The notes beneath the pieces are model-generated. The model saw nothing but the letters and a program-made list of their open reading frames with translations, made no database searches and was not told the DNA's origin. From Halalkalicoccus jeotgali B3 (GTDB lineage: Archaea; Halobacteriota; Halobacteria; Halobacteriales; Halalkalicoccaceae), in the NCBI RefSeq assembly GCF_000196895.1, contig NC_014298.1:186001-250000 (forward strand): a stretch of 64,000 nt of DNA, in the 5' to 3' direction. Both the position numbers and the translations under genes were made by a program. This document shows, piece after piece, positions 9,863-60,217 of this stretch. Numbering within the stretch: position 1 is the first letter of the stretch; each line of letters starts with the position of its first letter.

Positions 9863-9907
9863 CCTTGTGCAACAACTCGCATCTTGCGTGTGAAATATTG
9901 CACAAGG
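9863..9907. repeat. hairpin element copy a
   Basis: 45 bp with arms CCTTGTGCAACA and ATTGCACAAGG (one arm mismatch) around a ~22-nt loop. It is followed on the right by GTAGACCTTTTTG. It lies between the AI-2E fragment and the PadR gene, 130 bp beyond the PadR stop. Confidence 0.85.
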
Positions 9908-10037: not shown

Positions 10038-10340
10038 TCAATCAGTCGTCGCTTCAACGCTACTGGAGTCACGGATGTACTGATTTTCCCACTCATGGCG
10101 CGCAGTAAGCTCGCGCTGGCCCCGAGATGTTATCCGGTAATAATTCGATCGACGGTCCACTTCACCTTTTTCAACCAGCCCTTTGTCCACGAGTGTATCG
10201 AGATTCGGATAGAGGCGGCCATGATGAATCTCCGTTCCAGTATAGTCTTCTAGTGTCTCTTTGATCGCGAGGCCATTCGGTTCGTCCTTCCCAGCAACCA
10301 CATAGAGGAGATCCCGTTGGCATCCGGTCAAATCGTGCAT
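10038..10340 (-). CDS. PadR-family transcriptional regulator
   Basis: 100-residue winged-HTH protein: MHDLTGCQRDLLYVVAGKDEPNG then LYPNLDTLVDKGLVEKGEVDRRSNYYRITSRGQREL, the PadR recognition helix and wing pattern. It is clearly paralogous to the regulator at 39842-40162 (shared DLTGxQRDLLYVVAGK, LVEKG, RRxNYY and REWENQY). The gene sits between hairpin copies a and b. A target gene is not evident. Confidence 0.88.
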   Translation of the reverse strand: MHDLTGCQRDLLYVVAGKDEPNGLAIKETLEDYTGTEIHHGRLYPNLDTLVDKGLVEKGEVDRRSNYYRITSRGQRELTARHEWENQYIRDSSSVEATTD

Positions 10341-10598: not shown

Positions 10599-10641
10599 CC
10601 TTGTGCAACAAACATCCTAGGATACGAGATGTTGCACAAGG
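10599..10641. repeat. hairpin element copy b
   Basis: 43 bp with perfect 12-bp arms CCTTGTGCAACA / TGTTGCACAAGG around a 19-nt loop. The right flank GTAAACTCTCTTTGAAG resembles that of copy h. It lies 57 bp beyond the stop of the glycosylase-tail remnant, almost the same spacing as copy e has to the glycosylase gene at 56298. Confidence 0.9.
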
Positions 10642-30838: not shown

Positions 30839-30883
30839 CCTTGTGCAACATCATGACTCTCCAATACGGGACTGTTGCACAAG
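30839..30883. repeat. hairpin element copy c
   Basis: 45 bp: CCTTGTGCAACA, 22-nt loop TCATGACTCTCCAATACGGGAC, then TGTTGCACAAG; the outermost base of the right arm is changed. It lies between the mini-histone gene and the zinc-finger gene at 31054. The 30686-31053 gap holds nothing else recognisable. Confidence 0.9.
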
Positions 30884-31053
30884 ACTCAGTACTCCGTCTG
30901 TTCTGTTCGGCGGTATTGGCTGTTAGCGTAGCCAAACCGACCGCTGCACGGTCTAGTGGATTGCTATAGAGGACCAGCAGTTCCGATGCTCTACTGTCGC
31001 ATCTCACGTATATCGGCCGAATATTGATAACCACCCTATACAATAAGCGGAAT

Positions 31054-31398: not shown

Positions 31399-31443
31399 CC
31401 TTGTGCACTATCGATCCCTTCTCAGCAGGGTGAGTTACACAAG
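31399..31443. repeat. hairpin element copy d
   Basis: 45 bp: CCTTGTGCACTA, loop TCGATCCCTTCTCAGCAGGG plus TG, then AGTTACACAAG. The inner arms have mutated independently. It follows R repeat copy 2. The 31444-31785 stretch after it shows no gene. Confidence 0.8.
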
Positions 31444-31785
31444 TTCCAGTCTCTGAAACACCTTCCCCACAGACGATATCCCTGCCTAATCATCGGTCCT
31501 CAGAGCCATGAGAGCCGATTTGATATCTGAAAAATATATTTCGAAATAAAAAGCTGTTCTCAAGTGGATTACGAGGCTAAGTAGAACACGATAGTTACTG
31601 TCAGCAAATTTCCGGATTTTGGATGGATTTTGGACTGGGTTCGGAAAACGCTCTTCTATTGATTGATGGTGGAATCACACGTTGTGGGCCCCTGGATGTA
31701 GAAACGACCTGTGGCGCACACGACATGCACAACAACAGCCGAATCGTGTGAATAATCAACAACAGAGACAGGACAGAACCAGAAT

Positions 31786-32592
31786 ATGACGGAACAATCA
31801 GAGACAAACGATGACGCAAAACAGATGCCGGACTTCCCACTCAACCGGAATCCCGAGAGAGAACTCGAACAGGCGCCTGCCGCCGAATCCGAGAGTGGAC
31901 AATCCCGCCGCGGATTTCTCGCTGCATCCGCAGCAGTTGGACTCGGTGCTGCAGGCATGACCGGATCAGTGAGCGCCCACGACGGCGACGGTGATGAGAG
32001 CAGTACGAACCATGATGACGACGACAATACCAAAATGAACGAGATCGAAGTCGACGCAGGCGCTGGATTCACCGTACAGGATATCGTTGACAACCCAGAC
32101 GGATTTTTCGTGGACGTCCACACCGAAGAGTTCGTTCCTGGTGCGATCCGGGGGCAAATACACGGCGAACCAGGAGATACGCAGTTCCTCGTGCAGGCCG
32201 ACGGTGATCAGGTCGTTGATGGTGACTCTGGCGAGGTTGGTATCGGCGATCCGGAGGGAAGTGGTCTCTATGAGCTAGAGCTGCAGCCCGAGGAGAACAT
32301 CATCTGCTTCGACATCGCTGTCGATGTGACGCCGCCATACCAGAGCCCTGCGAACACAGCAACCCACATCCACGAGGCGCCGGAAGGAGAGGCTGGACCG
32401 CCACGTGTCGTATTCCCGGATCCGACGCCGAATGATCCGGAGGTACAGCAGGTCCGAGAGAGCGTTGGCTGCCTGCCTGGTGAGTTCGCGACCATGACAG
32501 GTGTGATGATTCCTGTCGAGGACAATCCGCGAGTTGACGCCGATAACGTCGAAAAGAAAGAAGTGTACATGCCAAAAGACAAGGATTGTTAA
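31786..32592 (+). CDS. Tat-exported CHRD-domain protein
   Basis: 268 residues. After an acidic leader containing MPDFPLNRNPERE comes the Tat motif QSRRGFLAASAAVGLGAAG (residues about 40-60). The mature part carries CHRD-type sequence: GFFVDVHTEEFVPGAIRGQI, then YELELQPEENIICFDIAVDV and ATHIHEAPEGEAGPPRVVFP. The order is unusual, with the end of one CHRD unit followed by the start of another, as if tandem domains lost their outer halves. Secreted; function unknown. Confidence 0.8.
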   Translation: MTEQSETNDDAKQMPDFPLNRNPERELEQAPAAESESGQSRRGFLAASAAVGLGAAGMTGSVSAHDGDGDESSTNHDDDDNTKMNEIEVDAGAGFTVQDIVDNPDGFFVDVHTEEFVPGAIRGQIHGEPGDTQFLVQADGDQVVDGDSGEVGIGDPEGSGLYELELQPEENIICFDIAVDVTPPYQSPANTATHIHEAPEGEAGPPRVVFPDPTPNDPEVQQVRESVGCLPGEFATMTGVMIPVEDNPRVDADNVEKKEVYMPKDKDC

Positions 32593-32832
32593 CGAAGACG
32601 ACTGGTGTCTTCCCACGATCCCTTCAGCCGGCCCCAAACGGAGACACTACCGAAGGGGTCCCGCCCTGGGACTCACTCCGCTGACAATCATCACCCTCTC
32701 TACTTCCGGTCTTCGACCAATGGGAGAGGAGACGGGGCAACAGAGTGACGAAAAAGGACGAAATGGGGCTGTGAGCCCGATACACTGCACAGTTGATGAA
32801 CAGCTCGACGTAACCGAAGCTCGGAGAACACA

Positions 32833-33738
32833 ATGACTGACCACGACGACGCGAACGATAGGACGAACCGACAAACCGGCCGAATGCCCGATTACCCACT
32901 AAACAGGAGCTGGTCGGCTGGTCTGCACGTGAGTAACGAAGCAACTAAAGAGGAGACTGACGCTGCTCGTCACAGCTCTTCTCGGCGTGGGTTCTTAGCT
33001 GGAACCGCGGCTGTGGGACTCGGCGCCGCCGGACTTGCCTCACCGGCCGGCGCCGACAACCACGACGATAGCGAGAAGGACACTGGAAACTCCGAACTCG
33101 AGGACGGTGCACGCATCGTTCACCTCTCGCCGGATGCCCCTATCGTGGATGTGTACGTCGACGGGGAACTGTGGTTTGAGGATGTCGAGCCGTTCGCGAC
33201 CCAGACACCGTACCTCGAGTACGTGCCTGGAACGTACACGGTCCAGTTCACACCTGCCGGTGAGGGCCCCGAGGCGGCGGTCCTCGAACGTGAAGTCACC
33301 TTTGAGGAAGGACGCTATACGGTTGCCGCCGTTGGCGAGGCCTGTGCGGGAAGCGACGAACCACTACGGATCGTTCCCTTCGAAGACGATACGACCCCCA
33401 CGTCGTCGGGACACGCCCGTGTCCGGGGCATTCACGCGTCAGTCGACGCTCCATGTGTCGACTTCACCGTTCGAACCGGCGAAGAGACCGTCTTTGAGAA
33501 CCTTGGATTCGGAGAGGGGAATTACGGCGAAGTGGCCGCTGACGAAACGGTTCTTGAGATACGCGAGAGCGCGACCGGTGAGATCGTTGAGCGCTTCGAT
33601 ATCGGGTTCGAGGCGGGGGCAGTCTACACGGTGTTCGCCCTCGGATACGTTGATCCAACTACTGCACCCGAAAGCGCGGTCGAAAACGCCTCGTTTGCAC
33701 TTGGGATTACTGAGGACGCGATACCGGGTGAACGGTAA
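32833..33738 (+). CDS. Tat-exported DUF4397 protein
   Basis: 301 residues. The leader contains MPDYPLNRSWSAG, followed by the Tat motif SSRRGFLAGTAAVGLGAAG. Two DUF4397 beta-sandwich repeats follow: ARIVHLSPDAPIVDVYVDG near residue 95 and VRGIHASVDAPCVDFTVRTG near residue 198. This is an extracellular protein of unknown function. It is 240 bp after the CHRD gene on the same strand and shares its unusual leader, so the two are probably co-regulated or duplicated leaders. Confidence 0.85.
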   Translation: MTDHDDANDRTNRQTGRMPDYPLNRSWSAGLHVSNEATKEETDAARHSSSRRGFLAGTAAVGLGAAGLASPAGADNHDDSEKDTGNSELEDGARIVHLSPDAPIVDVYVDGELWFEDVEPFATQTPYLEYVPGTYTVQFTPAGEGPEAAVLEREVTFEEGRYTVAAVGEACAGSDEPLRIVPFEDDTTPTSSGHARVRGIHASVDAPCVDFTVRTGEETVFENLGFGEGNYGEVAADETVLEIRESATGEIVERFDIGFEAGAVYTVFALGYVDPTTAPESAVENASFALGITEDAIPGER

Positions 33739-33786
33739 GCCGATGACACGTGTTGCCTAGATTCCGGGAAGTTGAATGGTTCTTCT

Positions 33787-33995
33787 ATGAGCGATCAGAA
33801 TGAACCGCTATTATTACAGTGGCAAGTGGAGATAAAGAGAATAATGGAGGCCGTTCTCTGGTACGTGCTCACCGGAACTCGCGGGGGGCCGAACCGAGTC
33901 CGCCTCCTGCAGGCAATTGATGAACGGCCACGCAATGCCAATCAGTTCGCCGAGGATCTCGACCTCGATTACACGACGATCCGCCATCACCTCGA
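33787..33995 (+). pseudogene. ArsR-like HTH regulator, 3' part replaced
   Basis: Starts MSDQNEPLLLQWQVEIKRIM and continues through LTGTRGGPNRVRLLQAIDER and NANQFAEDLDLDYTTIRHHL, a standard winged-HTH core. At CTCGAGGTTC (about 33991-34000) the sequence switches to the inside of an acetyltransferase gene on the opposite strand. The remaining frame to 34494 is antisense noise. The regulator lost its wing and C-terminus. Confidence 0.75.
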
Positions 33996-34203
33996 GGTTC
34001 CCCATCACCAACCCAACGAGTTCTCCTCTGACAGAGGCGCCGTACCCTCGATATCCCGACGTTTCAAGGATTTGCGAGAGTCGTCTACGAGCTGTTTCGT
34101 CGGTCCAGTCATCATTCCACGGCGGTTCGTTAAACACAGCACGATACAACTGGACTCCCTCGTCCAAATTGTCACGCGGAAAGGACTCGACGGAGACAGT
34201 CAT
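33996..34203 (-). pseudogene. GNAT acetyltransferase, N-terminal fragment
   Basis: Minus strand from the ATG at 34203: MTVSVESFPRDNLDEGVQLY, then RAVFNEPPWNDDWTDETARR and YGASVRGELVGLVMGNLE. This is the start of a GNAT N-acetyltransferase. The acetyl-CoA loop and the rest are missing because the gene is fused tail-to-tail to the HTH fragment near 33995. Confidence 0.75.
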
Positions 34204-56200: not shown

Positions 56201-56245
56201 GCCTTGTGCAACGAATCGGTTCTTAGATACGGAGTGTTGCACAAG
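56201..56245. repeat. hairpin element copy e
   Basis: 45 bp: CCTTGTGCAACG, loop AATCGGTTCTTAGATACGGAG, TGTTGCACAAGG. Eleven arm pairs plus one wobble. It lies 52 bp beyond the stop of the glycosylase-like gene. Confidence 0.92.
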
Positions 56246-56297
56246 GCAGACGTTTCACGAGAACAATCGGCGTTTGTCTGGACGGAGACTCCTTTCG

Positions 56298-56708
56298 CTA
56301 CCAACGACCGATATCGTGTGTCACTCGATACTGCTGATAGTAGGCTTTCTCGACAGTCCGGAGATCGAACCCGCCTGGATTCCGTTCACAGAGTGCAGTA
56401 AAGATTCGCGAGTAGTCAGAAAGTCGCAGTGTTCGGTCCTCACCAAAGAGAACTGCAATCATATATCGATCACCGACTGCGTAGTTCATCGGATCATGGA
56501 AGGTGAGAACGACTGTTGCGGTCGCAGGTCCGATTCCAGGGATTGACGTGAGGGTTTTCAGCTGGAACTTCGGATCGTCGACGAGGAAGGCTGCTTCACT
56601 GATTCGCTGGACGAACGCTGCAGGAACCTCGGACATCCACTCGATGTATCGATCTCGCCGTCTGCGTTGGAACAACGAGCCAAGAAGACGACGCATAGCT
56701 TTCGACAA
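56298..56708 (-). CDS. HhH-GPD DNA glycosylase-like protein, probably N-truncated
   Basis: 136 residues. The helix-hairpin-helix LTSIPGIGPATATVVLTF is followed by the Asp of YAVGDRYM, the lyase/glycosylase catalytic position in this superfamily. No iron-sulfur cluster. At 136 residues it lacks most of the N-terminal half of normal glycosylases. Homology to R repeat sequence begins just upstream of its start, suggesting the gene was cut there. It lies between hairpins e and f. Confidence 0.65.
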   Translation of the reverse strand: MSKAMRRLLGSLFQRRRRDRYIEWMSEVPAAFVQRISEAAFLVDDPKFQLKTLTSIPGIGPATATVVLTFHDPMNYAVGDRYMIAVLFGEDRTLRLSDYSRIFTALCERNPGGFDLRTVEKAYYQQYRVTHDIGRW

Positions 56709-56846
56709 CCATCCCGGGTACGCCCTCCGTTCCTAGTTACAACTCCGAGCAGCCTCCTCCTGAATAAGTAGTAGTAGAGGGAGTAGAAACGGGTTCTCTG
56801 ATTCTGGCTTCGCGAGCATATCACACCACGGTGTGATCAGATACAG
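56709..56846. repeat. R repeat, copy 3 (between glycosylase and hairpin f)
   Basis: 138 bp, the best-preserved R copy. It ends in an 18-bp palindrome ATCACACC-AC-GGTGTGAT (56820-56837), a plausible operator, and is followed directly by hairpin f. R lies upstream of the minus-strand glycosylase gene and could be its promoter region. Confidence 0.8.
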
Positions 56847-56890
56847 CCTTGTGCAACGAATCCTCTTGACACGGCCAGAGTTGCACAAGG
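56847..56890. repeat. hairpin element copy f
   Basis: 44 bp: CCTTGTGCAACG, loop AATCCTCTTGACACGGCCAG, AGTTGCACAAGG. Separated from the Lrp remnant stop (57155) by about 265 bp of unassigned sequence. Confidence 0.92.
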
Positions 56891-57154
56891 TTGTCTACCA
56901 TTCAGTCGCTATCAACGCCTTCAGAGTCAGCAGTACCTCCGGGTCGAACATTCGTGTCGATCCCGCTACTGACACTTCCACGTCTCTTCTGCGAAAATCG
57001 CAATTTGAAGCCATTTCAGTGACATTTAAGTAATACTCTCCCGTAGTAGCTGTTGCTTCGTCCCCCTCTCACGTGAGAGTCTCGCATTGTATTCTCATTA
57101 ATGTTCTGCTCGTTATCACGTTCAGTGCGAAATTCACAGCAATTGTGGCTCAAT

Positions 57155-57706
57155 TCACTCTTGATCAGCAGGTGGAGCGTGCTCGATCGTGGTGTCTTCA
57201 GGGACGTCGGAGACGGCAGCTCGAGACCGGCTGTACTCGAAATAATTGAACGGCTGACTGAACGTACTCGTGACGATCTGGGAGGAGTGAATATCGAGGT
57301 TGAGATTCTCGAGCTCACGCGTGATCTCGGTCAAATCCTGCGAACTCGTCGCGATCACTTCAATAAGGAGATTGTGCTCACTCGTCACCATCTCTTGAAC
57401 GGTGATGACACCACCGATGTCTAAGGCATCGCGTGCCGCCTGGTGGCGTTGGTTCATTGAGGCTGTACAGATGAATTAGACGCGAAGCGAGAACCCTGCT
57501 CGTTCGTAGTCGAGTTCTGGGGCGTACGTTTTGATAACGCCCGCCTCTTCGAGTGCGGTAATTCGATTGCGGACCGTACTCTGTGAGACCCCGACTGTGG
57601 TGCTGATCTCCTCGTGGGTCGTCTTCCGTGCATCTTGCTGTAATTCATAGAGGATCTCTCGATCAAGGTCGTCTAAAACGACATTGCCATCCTGTTCTTT
57701 GACCAT
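57155..57706 (-). pseudogene. Lrp/AsnC-family regulator with one nonsense codon
   Basis: From the ATG at 57706: MVKEQDGNVVLDDLDREILY, HTH core EISTTVGVSQSTVRNRITAL, GFSLRV, then TAA (57476-57478), and in the same frame FICTASMNQRHQAARDALDI followed by the AsnC-type ligand domain (VTSEHNLLIEVIATSSQDLT). A CAA or CAG codon apparently mutated to TAA; nothing is shifted. A truncated HTH protein or a restart at 57457 could still be made. Confidence 0.85.
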
Positions 57707-57883
57707 ACGGTCGACTGCACGGCACCAGTGAAGTATGTTAGCGTTGTCCAGTCCCCCAGTCACGAGAAACGAACAGAAAACAAGAACTGAGAACCGGGAC
57801 TGTATGTTACGAGCTACTCCCGTCTATCGAAAGTCTCTCGCTATAGTAGTCGCGCTCCGTTTGTTGAGGGTCACTAACTACTG

Positions 57884-57929
57884 CCTTGTGCAACAATCGT
57901 CTTCTCGTAACAGCCACTGTTGCACAAGG
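57884..57929. repeat. hairpin element copy g
   Basis: 46 bp: CCTTGTGCAACA, loop ATCGTCTTCTCGTAACAGCC plus AC, TGTTGCACAAGG, with perfect 12-bp arms. The reading frame of the remnant gene at 57954-58794 runs straight into it. Confidence 0.93.
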
Positions 57930-57953
57930 TGAGGAAAATATCAAACTCGACAA

Positions 57954-58794
57954 TTAGCCGGCGGAGACGTCTCTCAGACGTTCCACCATCCGTTGCCGGA
58001 ATCGCCTGTATGAGGACGTCCATCTGGTGCGTCGCTTCTGTCTCAGCCTTCTTACGACGTTGCTGCTCAGCGTCGCCGTCGGGAGAAAGAGGTCCGCGTT
58101 ACTCGGTGATGGTTCATACCCGAGTCGATCGAGGATCAGCGGTGTGTACGTCTCTTTGAGGTAGTCTGAGAGGCCTTCCCATGGCGCTCTCGATCGCGAC
58201 GTGGATGTCATGCCGAGAGATCCATGATCTTTCCTTCTCTATCGGTGTGCAGCCGATCTCTCGGCACATCGCGACTGTCCGCTTCTCTTTCGTCGAGAGG
58301 CCGTCGGTGGTCTGCGATTCGTCGAGGTCGGCAACGATCTGCGAAATGTCATCCGATACGCGGGCGAACTTCTCGGTTGTTCGGTCCGCTCGGTTGCTTT
58401 GTCGATACTCTCGGAGGGCGTAGCCGAGTGCGAGATCGTAGCGCGTTCCGAACTCGGTATGCTCTTTGACGAACGACATGAAGCGCTCCCGGAGGTCGGC
58501 GTCGATCCGACGGTTCACCAGCGTGGTATCTTCGCCACGAAGCGTCTCGCTCGTGCTCGATGTTTCTTTTTTCGAGGGATGCTCCGAAGGTGTGTATCCT
58601 CCTGCTCGAAGGACCGAATCGACCAACTGTTCCAGCTCACGAAGGTCGTCAGTGTCGATATACTCTCGAATCGCGTTCTCGATGAATACCCACGCATAGC
58701 GGTCTCTATCGCCCCGTTCCGATTCGACGAAACGAAGGAACTTCTTGTATTCCTCGGCGGGAACCCGCCAACCGATACACTCCTCGGACGTCAT
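57954..58794 (-). pseudogene. DNA-binding-type protein, two frameshifts, end at hairpin g
   Basis: From the ATG at 58794: MTSEECIGWRVPAEEYKKFL, two helical repeats (NAIREYIDTDDLRELEQLVD and LALGYALREYRQS), then HDIHVAIESAMGR. A shift near 58170 restores SDYLKETYTPLILDRLGYEP, and a second near 58085 restores DGDAEQQRRKKAETEATHQM to the end. The layout suggests a plasmid-type ribbon-helix-helix or partition-like protein; no family named. Two operator-like palindromes lie just upstream. Confidence 0.6.
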
Positions 58795-58820
58795 TACACG
58801 CACACCTCCGAAAGTAGTGC

Positions 58821-58879
58821 GCTATCAGCGTGATAGCAGAGTGATCTCCCACTAACACTAACGCTATCATGATGATAGC
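58821..58879. promoter_or_regulatory. two 17-bp palindromes, likely operator sites
   Basis: GCTATCAGCGTGATAGC (58821-58837) and GCTATCATGATGATAGC (58863-58879) share the arms GCTATCA/TGATAGC with 3-bp spacers. Their centres are 42 bp apart, four helical turns. They start 27 bp before the gene at 58794, consistent with autorepression by a dimeric DNA-binding protein. Confidence 0.7.
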
Positions 58880-59367
58880 AAGAAAGAGAGGAGCGGAGGC
58901 GGTGCGAACAGGGGGTCGCGGGCGACCCCCTCCTCATATGCATGAGTTCACTCGAACGGAGGGGTGGGGGTCTTTATAAATGAATCTACTCACTTGAACG
59001 GGTGGTTCGACCTGATCTTACTCGTGGCGAGTTCGCGCGGGTCGGTGATCTCGATATCAAAGACTACTGAGAACGCATAGGGGAACAGTCGAGCTCGTCG
59101 GTGAGGCTGAGCGTGTAGTTACCAATCGTTTCCTTACCTTATTCTGTGAGCGGGCCGTTCTTTCGTTGAGTGAGTTGGTTAGGTTAGGGTCGTAAGTGGT
59201 TTGGCCGTGTTGGAATCTCTCAAACGGAGATAGGTTTCAGGAGTTGTACTGAATACAGAGCGCGTATCCAGCAGCAAATTCGTCGTGCGCCGGGTGTCTT
59301 CCACTATCGGCGGTGAACTATCGAACACGGCGTGGAATGGAGGCATCGGATCAGTTGTGCCAGAAAT
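58880..59367. other. intergenic with a short direct duplication
   Basis: Contains 59140-59192, about 80% identical by eye to 56091-56142 (TATTCTGTGAGC...CGTTCTTTCGTTGAG). No gene seen. Confidence 0.5.
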
Positions 59368-59925
59368 CTACCGTAGCGCCCCGATCACCACGAACGTCTC
59401 TCGGCGTTCCTGGGCCTCAACGATGTGAAAGCCGGCCTCCAAGAGGTGCAATTGGACGGTCGCGAGGTTCAAGTACTCCTCTTCGTCACGACCGTCGCGT
59501 TCGCCGGCCCCGGTAGCCGACCAGTCGACGATCACGAGGCGACCACCTGGCCGAACGACGCGCGCAATCTCGTCGAGGGCTGACTCGAATCCGTGATGAT
59601 ATGTGCGAATCGACACGCCGCCGTCAAGGTGATTATCGGGAAAGGGGAGATTCGCAAAGTCAGCGGTGACAGGCGTGACGTTCGCTGGAATCCCGTGTTC
59701 GCGATAGACTGTGTGGAGATCTCGTCGAACGTCGACAGCGAAGACGGTATCGGCGACCGGGGCCAGCTCGGTCGTGAAGAGGCCGGCGCCGCTGCCAAAA
59801 TCGGCAACTCGCGAATCGGGCCCGGGAGCGAGGAATCTCCGAAGCTCTTCGCCGGAGCAATAGCGGAAGGCGCTCGGATCGGTAAGCTTGCTAATCCGTT
59901 CCTGATCGTACGGTGGTATGGGCAT
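59368..59925 (-). CDS. class I SAM-dependent methyltransferase
   Basis: 185 residues. Motif I VADFGSGAGLFTTELA (near residue 40), motif II VFAVDVRRDL, LPFPDNHLDGGVSIRTYHHGF (motif IV region) and RVVRPGGRLVIVDWS (post motif). Substrate unknown. This gene is intact while the other methyltransferase at 55.4-55.7 kb is not. ATG at 59925. Confidence 0.9.
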   Translation of the reverse strand: MPIPPYDQERISKLTDPSAFRYCSGEELRRFLAPGPDSRVADFGSGAGLFTTELAPVADTVFAVDVRRDLHTVYREHGIPANVTPVTADFANLPFPDNHLDGGVSIRTYHHGFESALDEIARVVRPGGRLVIVDWSATGAGERDGRDEEEYLNLATVQLHLLEAGFHIVEAQERRETFVVIGALR

Positions 59926-60173
59926 AGCTGATCGATTGCACAGAAAATGGTCGCCTCGCGACTTAAATACGGGGTAGAACTCTGGATCGACCGCCGGACC
60001 AGGAGCTGCGGACTGTCACATATCGGTACGTGTCACGCGGGGACGCCAAACACGGTTCGTTTGAACCTCTGTATGCAGCTCCTCGTTCTTATCACATTCT
60101 GAGAATTTCTACAGAGTACTGATTGTAATATCTGCGACTGTGAGCACGGACTCCCATTTCTTGACTGGGCTAC

Positions 60174-60217
60174 CCTTGTGCAACAAAGCGTCCTTGGAGG
60201 CGGGGTGTTGCACAAGG
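60174..60217. repeat. hairpin element copy h
   Basis: 44 bp: CCTTGTGCAACA, loop AAGCGTCCTTGGAGGCGGGG, TGTTGCACAAGG with perfect arms. The right flank GTGGACTCTTTTGAA matches copy b's flank. It sits at the lost end of the regulator pseudogene below. Confidence 0.93.

Follow-up and report, generated by a model that had tools for sequence, protein, structure and literature searches.

Twin 13-bp inverted motifs at DUF6788 gene starts and at rearrangement junctions of haloarchaeal plasmids: candidate operator- and centromere-like sites

The stretch of DNA analysed here, henceforth the window, is a 64,000-nt segment (G000:C2:186001-250000) of the 406,285-bp plasmid C2 of Halalkalicoccus jeotgali B3, a strain with a genome of 3.70 Mb. 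It contains eight hairpin-like inverted repeats (e, f, g, h, a, b, c and a decayed d), of which e to h stand in a row with the layout CCTTGTGCAAC–N22-24–GTTGCACAAGG; over all the sites collected in this work the loop ranges from 17 to 26 nt. Five pairs in the window are exact where none is expected (100 shuffles), and hairpins e, f, g and h, first picked out in an initial annotation made from the sequence, are all exact and hence real. That annotation took them, together with the short gene blocks that they bracket, for integron-like cassettes or hairpin-bounded transposable units. The evidence assembled below points instead to dispersed sites of a probably autoregulated plasmid protein, with the family DUF6788 (PF20586) as its candidate, at which plasmid DNA has been rearranged. 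The features of the window are listed here; Halalkalicoccus gene models are codon-based calls made in this analysis, and relatives are represented by one genome per species.

9863–9907, no strand: hairpin a, one mismatch
10038–10340, minus strand: PadR-like gene separating hairpins a and b, supported by a gene call and a tblastn group
10599–10641, no strand: hairpin b, exact
30839–30884, no strand: hairpin c, one mismatch
31399–31444, no strand: hairpin d, decayed, four mismatches
56202–56246, no strand: hairpin e, exact, twin 11/13-bp inverted arms, 23-nt loop
56298–56708, minus strand: open reading frame (ORF) with an HHH motif between e and f, match below the Pfam cut-off
56847–56890, no strand: hairpin f, exact match, 22-nt loop
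57155–57763, minus strand: AsnC/Lrp-type regulator between f and g, in two parts (57476–57763 and 57155–57457)
57884–57929, no strand: hairpin g, exact match, 24-nt loop
58114–58803, minus strand: ORF without a Pfam match (Pfam scan)
59368–59925, minus strand: Methyltransf_11 protein between g and h (Pfam scan)
60174–60217, no strand: hairpin h, exact match, 22-nt loop

Genome-wide there are 26 exact copies, all but one of them on plasmids C2, C3 and C5 (25 copies). Of 392 genomes in the class, 8 have the exact pair (seven from Halalkalicoccus and the nearest relative genus, one from Natronococcus), and a scan of public genomes found dozens of exact pairs in Saliphagus infecundisoli. The matches in Arthrobacter and a few other bacteria are isolated and about what chance would give for a 22-base pattern in 257 Gb. 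A search of IMG/VR for the hairpin pattern returned zero copies, and an Rfam scan of the window at gathering thresholds was empty.

What is conserved among the 153 sites is the 13-bp motif R-CCTTGTGCAAC-A, which occurs in inverted pairs about 34 bp apart. Ninety-five sites are perfect and 39 have one change, after which the numbers fall steeply to background; where both flanks are shared, loops and near flanks have drifted to about 74–82% identity with the arms intact, which speaks for selection acting on the arms. The outer R/Y (-1/+1) and inner A/T positions vary independently between the two sides, A..C and G..T combinations being as frequent as chance predicts, and because these letters are chosen independently on each side the motif edges are not base pairs. 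Judged by this pattern of variation, each arm would act as a 13-bp double-stranded DNA motif and not as part of a base-paired stem. A folded single-strand structure was accordingly rejected, as the edges lack base-pair covariation and an inner stem is absent; the loops fold slightly more poorly than left/right chimeras, and their ends have a weak polarity. We also discarded the idea of loops as guides, since they match targets no more often than chance.

It was hairpins adjoining gene starts that drew attention to the family DUF6788. Of its 22 profile matches in Halalkalicoccus and Saliphagus, 18 have a hairpin directly upstream and, where the starts were read, the arm ends 2–7 bp ahead of the ATG; the loop upstream of DUF6788 holds a TATA-like sequence, e.g. 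AATATTAATA. Of the DUF6788 genes or operons examined in named viruses and plasmids, phiH and phiCh1 included, 12 out of 12 start 0–6 bp after an inverted repeat with a loop of 19–30 nt. The arms differ by lineage but follow a [CT]CTT-NNNN-AAC-like pattern, with cores GTGC, ATCA, GTGT, ATGT and ACCA:

CCTTGTGCAAC: Halalkalicoccus
CCTTATCAAAC: phiH and phiCh1
CCTTGTGTAAC: Halococcus
CCTTATGTAAC-like: Halobacterium, Halorubrum and Haloquadratum
TCTTACCAAAC: Haloterrigena

On Halalkalicoccus plasmids any such repeat is found at only 3 of 1622 gene starts, two of the three belonging to DUF6788. A general promoter element was rejected, given that hairpins shun the starts of genes other than DUF6788. 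The link was also tested as a prediction: the exact ATGT pair is present in 20 of the 392 genomes, 17 of which carry DUF6788 (p=1.4e-10, given 77 carriers among all 392), and among the cases listed eight ATGT pairs sit 10–25 bp from a DUF6788 match. Additional copies of the lineage arms are found between genes, four of them in the 58 kb of phiCh1 and at least two more in 36 kb of a Haloquadratum plasmid, and the plasmids of Halobacterium, Halococcus and Haloterrigena likewise hold extra intergenic copies of their own arms. Exact hairpins number 17–44 per genome in Halalkalicoccus where DUF6788 is intact or present in at least two copies; there are 4, 4 and 1 in G004, G007 and Natronococcus, in which it is undetected or single-copy. 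Two parts of the protein are conserved, a helical region at the N-terminus and a C-x4-C-x-C...HGPY motif, and we found no paper on the family in the open-access literature. Beside the hairpins and DUF6788 of Halalkalicoccus and Saliphagus there is also a gene for a 55-aa protein (MADLIVQAAVKE..., G000:C2:216518-216685 and many plasmid copies), which by eye seemingly resembles a histone fold.

DUF6788 genes are often found close to replication and partition genes. Their neighbours are ParA, RepR and RepH in phiH and phiCh1, ParA or Orc1/Cdc6 on the plasmids of Halalkalicoccus sp. FCH27, and Orc1-type genes rather than ParA in CGA53 and on H. jeotgali C2; in Halobacterium, Halorubrum and Haloquadratum, DUF6788 and ParA share one stretch. 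In phiH, one repeat stands ahead of the DUF6788 operon and a second 54 bp upstream of ParA, and the mapped transcription starts T8 and T7 lie at these repeats, T8 just 3' of the one at the DUF6788 operon. The ParA–DUF6788 block between the two sites (31631–34125 in phiH, 31809–33683 in phiCh1) is reversed in phiCh1 with respect to phiH, its phiCh1 position being between int2 and repR. The passage in which Inversion 2 between phiH1 and phiCh1 is described (nt 31,932–34,126, near Int2) makes no mention of repeats (PMC6210493). In phiH the end of the second repeat is at 34,125, and the first is located just past gene 245, which has no phiCh1 counterpart, so that Inversion 2, with the limits given in that passage, is bounded by twin-arm sites. 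The positions of the repeats match it, and therefore a hairpin-bounded block has been inverted in a published virus pair.

Rearrangement is also evident at the plasmid hairpins. When the plasmid contigs of two species were compared all against all, homology ended at hairpin edges: 79 of 125 hairpins contain such an end, compared to 27.4 (sd 4.5, maximum 41) in 200 draws of matched intergenic control windows. Flanks recur in different combinations: flank group 11, for instance, is found joined to group 2, group 10 or group 23, and the partners of group 12 are groups 15 and 24. Across five Halalkalicoccus species, one relative and Saliphagus, 115 of 205 hairpins have exactly one flank in common with another hairpin, and in the freshest case, where both copies belong to one genome, the shared flank has 97% identity over 1.3 kb and the loop and the far flank are unrelated. 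The array of the window offers its own examples: a homology that spans the shared flank and the entire hairpin ends at the left edge of e, the left flank of f (176 bp) is common to other hairpins with unrelated loops, and that of h is 93% identical over ~1.0 kb to a site in another genome (G002 C17:39937). A strict rule by which the loop travels with one flank was abandoned; it is true in some flank families and is tied neither to loop polarity nor to gene orientation.

No homologous segment in the plasmid comparison had both ends at hairpins, and clean empty sites numbered zero, as opposed to filled ones, of which there were 73 among single alignments and more than 100 among two-piece alignments. 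Abutting direct repeats were no commoner at the hairpins than by chance, giving no sign of target-site duplication. Because flanks are re-joined and both-end segments and empty sites are absent, the hairpin is a junction and not an insertion, and the data support hairpins as rearrangement junctions of plasmid DNA. Of the changes that the initial annotation had proposed to look for, reshuffling of hairpin neighbours is thus found, as exchange among plasmid flanks and as the inverted gene order of phiH and phiCh1; cassettes were not seen moving intact. A separate observation concerns a multi-copy family of coiled-coil genes (G000:C3:249414-250295 and ~28 related ends on the plasmids of both species), which ends in a conserved palindrome, TATCACACCACGGTGTGATTAGTCAGAC; the distance from there to a hairpin, intact or as a remnant, is usually 4 bp.

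As to the genes between the hairpins, the description first given (a glycosylase-like gene with a helix-hairpin-helix motif, an Lrp regulator, a DNA-binding-type gene and a methyltransferase) is roughly right. The HHH motif (below the cut-off), the Lrp type and the methyltransferase are recognisable, but the regulator is broken by an in-frame stop at 57476–57478 and the ORF at 58114–58803 matches no Pfam family. The ORF with the HHH motif seems to be a truncated copy belonging to a family found on plasmids, with the family junction at ~56670. Two inverted copies of a motif resembling an insertion sequence end (GTACTGAATACAGAGC / CTCTGTATGCAGC) surround the methyltransferase gene at 59226–59260 and 60068–60085.

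The array e–h itself, offered originally as a cassette-like pattern, is not a special one. When the 125 hairpins were distributed randomly in intergenic space, 1.0 quadruples within 4 kb were expected and one was observed, and neighbours less than 1.2 kb apart numbered 11 against 15.2, so that the density of the array equals that of random placement. No hairpin lies inside a called gene. Gene 3' ends have a mild excess of hairpins within 100 bp (30 vs 23 expected, P 0.06), 5' ends a depletion over the same distance (13 vs 26.7 expected), and convergent contexts show no excess (30 vs 26.2 expected).

Our preferred reading, to which we would give a probability of roughly 0.55, is that the hairpins are dispersed operator- or centromere-like sites of an autoregulated plasmid protein with a role in partition. 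The 13-bp motif is most likely bound by DUF6788; the product of a neighbouring gene is a less likely candidate. By binding the site at its own promoter DUF6788 would regulate itself, as the TATA-like loop suggests, and the dispersed copies on all large plasmids may act as a parS- or centromere-like mark of the replication-partition region (ParA, Orc1/Cdc6, RepH). The centromere-like role is favoured because of the replication-partition location, the occurrence in viruses that persist as plasmids and the near-absence of sites from the chromosome. Since they stay identical on mosaic plasmids, the sites also serve as junctions for re-joining or inverting segments, and microhomology at the conserved arms would suffice for this.

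Several observations weigh against this reading. DUF6788 has no recognised DNA-binding domain and no convincing solved relative, and its structure model is poor (predicted local distance difference test, pLDDT, 62) and unfit for a fold search. Seventeen to 44 sites per genome are many for a centromere, a different gene of the ParA operons is itself a candidate for the centromere-binding function, and ParA does not always adjoin a site. Three genomes with the ATGT pair have no detected DUF6788, and C3 and C5 carry sites yet no intact DUF6788, so action in trans must be assumed. Finally, in 4 of 15 hairpins with two mutations the changes compensate each other, which hints slightly at pairing or at arm-to-arm conversion.

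Among known systems, ParABS or type Ib partition, SegAB and AspA-ParBA resemble this one in having ParA in the region (here in many records), an autoregulatory promoter repeat (the regulation being predicted here), extra sites, and a home on plasmids or plasmid-forming viruses. They differ in that DUF6788, whose part in partition would be a prediction, is unrelated to ParB or SegB in a Pfam scan, and in that the hairpins have two 13-bp arms 17–26 nt apart and reach 44 sites per genome. Only tentatively would we extend the preferred reading to a haloarchaeal system of segregation and identity, in which DUF6788 on its twin 13-bp sites would be a trans-acting mark for partition, shared by the large plasmids of a cell but not by the chromosome, and modules, those of viruses included, would be shuffled or inverted at the mark, possibly by a resident tyrosine recombinase.

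It is rather doubtful, though it would fit the avoidance of gene starts, that the same binding protein forms a plasmid-wide transcription roadblock, with inverted pairs stopping polymerase from either side and so insulating gene blocks. Sites are intergenic, depleted near 5' ends and mildly in excess at 3' ends, and the putatively autoregulatory copy and lineage-specific consensus parallel the mycobacteriophage repressor and stoperators of the L5 clade (PMC6550527), in which, as here in positions and sequences, an asymmetric 13-bp motif is dispersed on the replicon and its consensus diverges with the protein. The stoperators of these cluster A phages are, however, single oriented sites, and ours are inverted pairs without a single orientation, on archaeal plasmids, with an unrelated protein family and no known immunity function. 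Convergent contexts are not enriched, and the annotation of phiH gives transcript T8, whose start is at one of these sites, as constitutive.

The junctions might alternatively mean that shuffling is the very function of the pairs, as recombination sites of a plasmid tyrosine recombinase, but we regard this as unlikely. In its favour are the homology ends, the single shared flanks and the inversion of the par block next to Int2, as located in the published passage, and there is a candidate enzyme: a conserved plasmid tyrosine recombinase of ~400 aa, intact at C2:63903-65216, lies within ~2–8 kb of DUF6788 in several genomes. It is 85% identical to a copy in another Halalkalicoccus and 38% identical to the Haloquadratum PL100 recombinase that adjoins DUF6788. 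Broken copies are found on C3 and in H. paucihalophilus, and the G002 plasmid contigs searched have only a fragment. Moreover, arm microhomology could give equal junctions, and a spacer of 17–26 nt of unrelated sequence is unlike the core sites of tyrosine recombinases. The pdif sites of Acinetobacter XerCD also have 11-bp inverted arms at the borders of plasmid modules that are shuffled and inverted, but their spacer is 6 bp and nearly matching and their arms are distinct for XerC and XerD, whereas both arms are identical here. Serine recombinases were rejected, with none in G001, G002, G006 or Saliphagus.

On several Halalkalicoccus plasmids, a hairpin family whose 76-bp flanks are conserved stands ~0.27 kb upstream of an operon of mobC-like, relaxase (PF03432) and TrwB/TraG genes (G000:C3:28796-31483, L108; G002 C16, C17 and C23; G005 C15 and C39), a possible origin of mobilisation. 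As an explanation of hairpins in general, a relaxase and its origin of transfer (oriT) were rejected, since this is the only family so placed and G001 and G006 are hairpin-rich yet gave no relaxase match.

Mobile repeats ending at the arms, of the miniature inverted-repeat transposable element or repetitive extragenic palindromic type, would be dispersed, intergenic, multi-copy and grouped in shared-flank families as the hairpins are, but are very improbable given the missing empty sites and target duplications and an interior that is random between conserved arms. The integron attC sites of the original proposal, or an attC cluster without integrase (CALIN), can practically be dismissed: the orientation of the arms is about right, the centre variable, the loop ends polar and the neighbours shuffled, but the hairpins are too short (45–48 bp), depart in the centre from RYYYAAC/GTTRRRY and show no L boxes, the integron integrase TIGR02249 does not reach the cut-off in any of the family's 10 genomes, and neither both-end cassettes nor a non-random array density was found.

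If the preferred reading is right, these observations bear on the segregation and centromeres of haloarchaeal plasmids and plasmid-forming viruses, for which DUF6788 would be a concrete candidate protein; whether archaeal centromeres are clustered or dispersed has been raised in a review (PMC5120986). Its putative cognate site is now available in at least five lineage versions, including the sites in the model viruses phiH and phiCh1. The hairpins provide a readable signature of plasmid DNA in haloarchaeal genomes, and the junctions at them are a likely reason for the mosaic nature of the megaplasmids.

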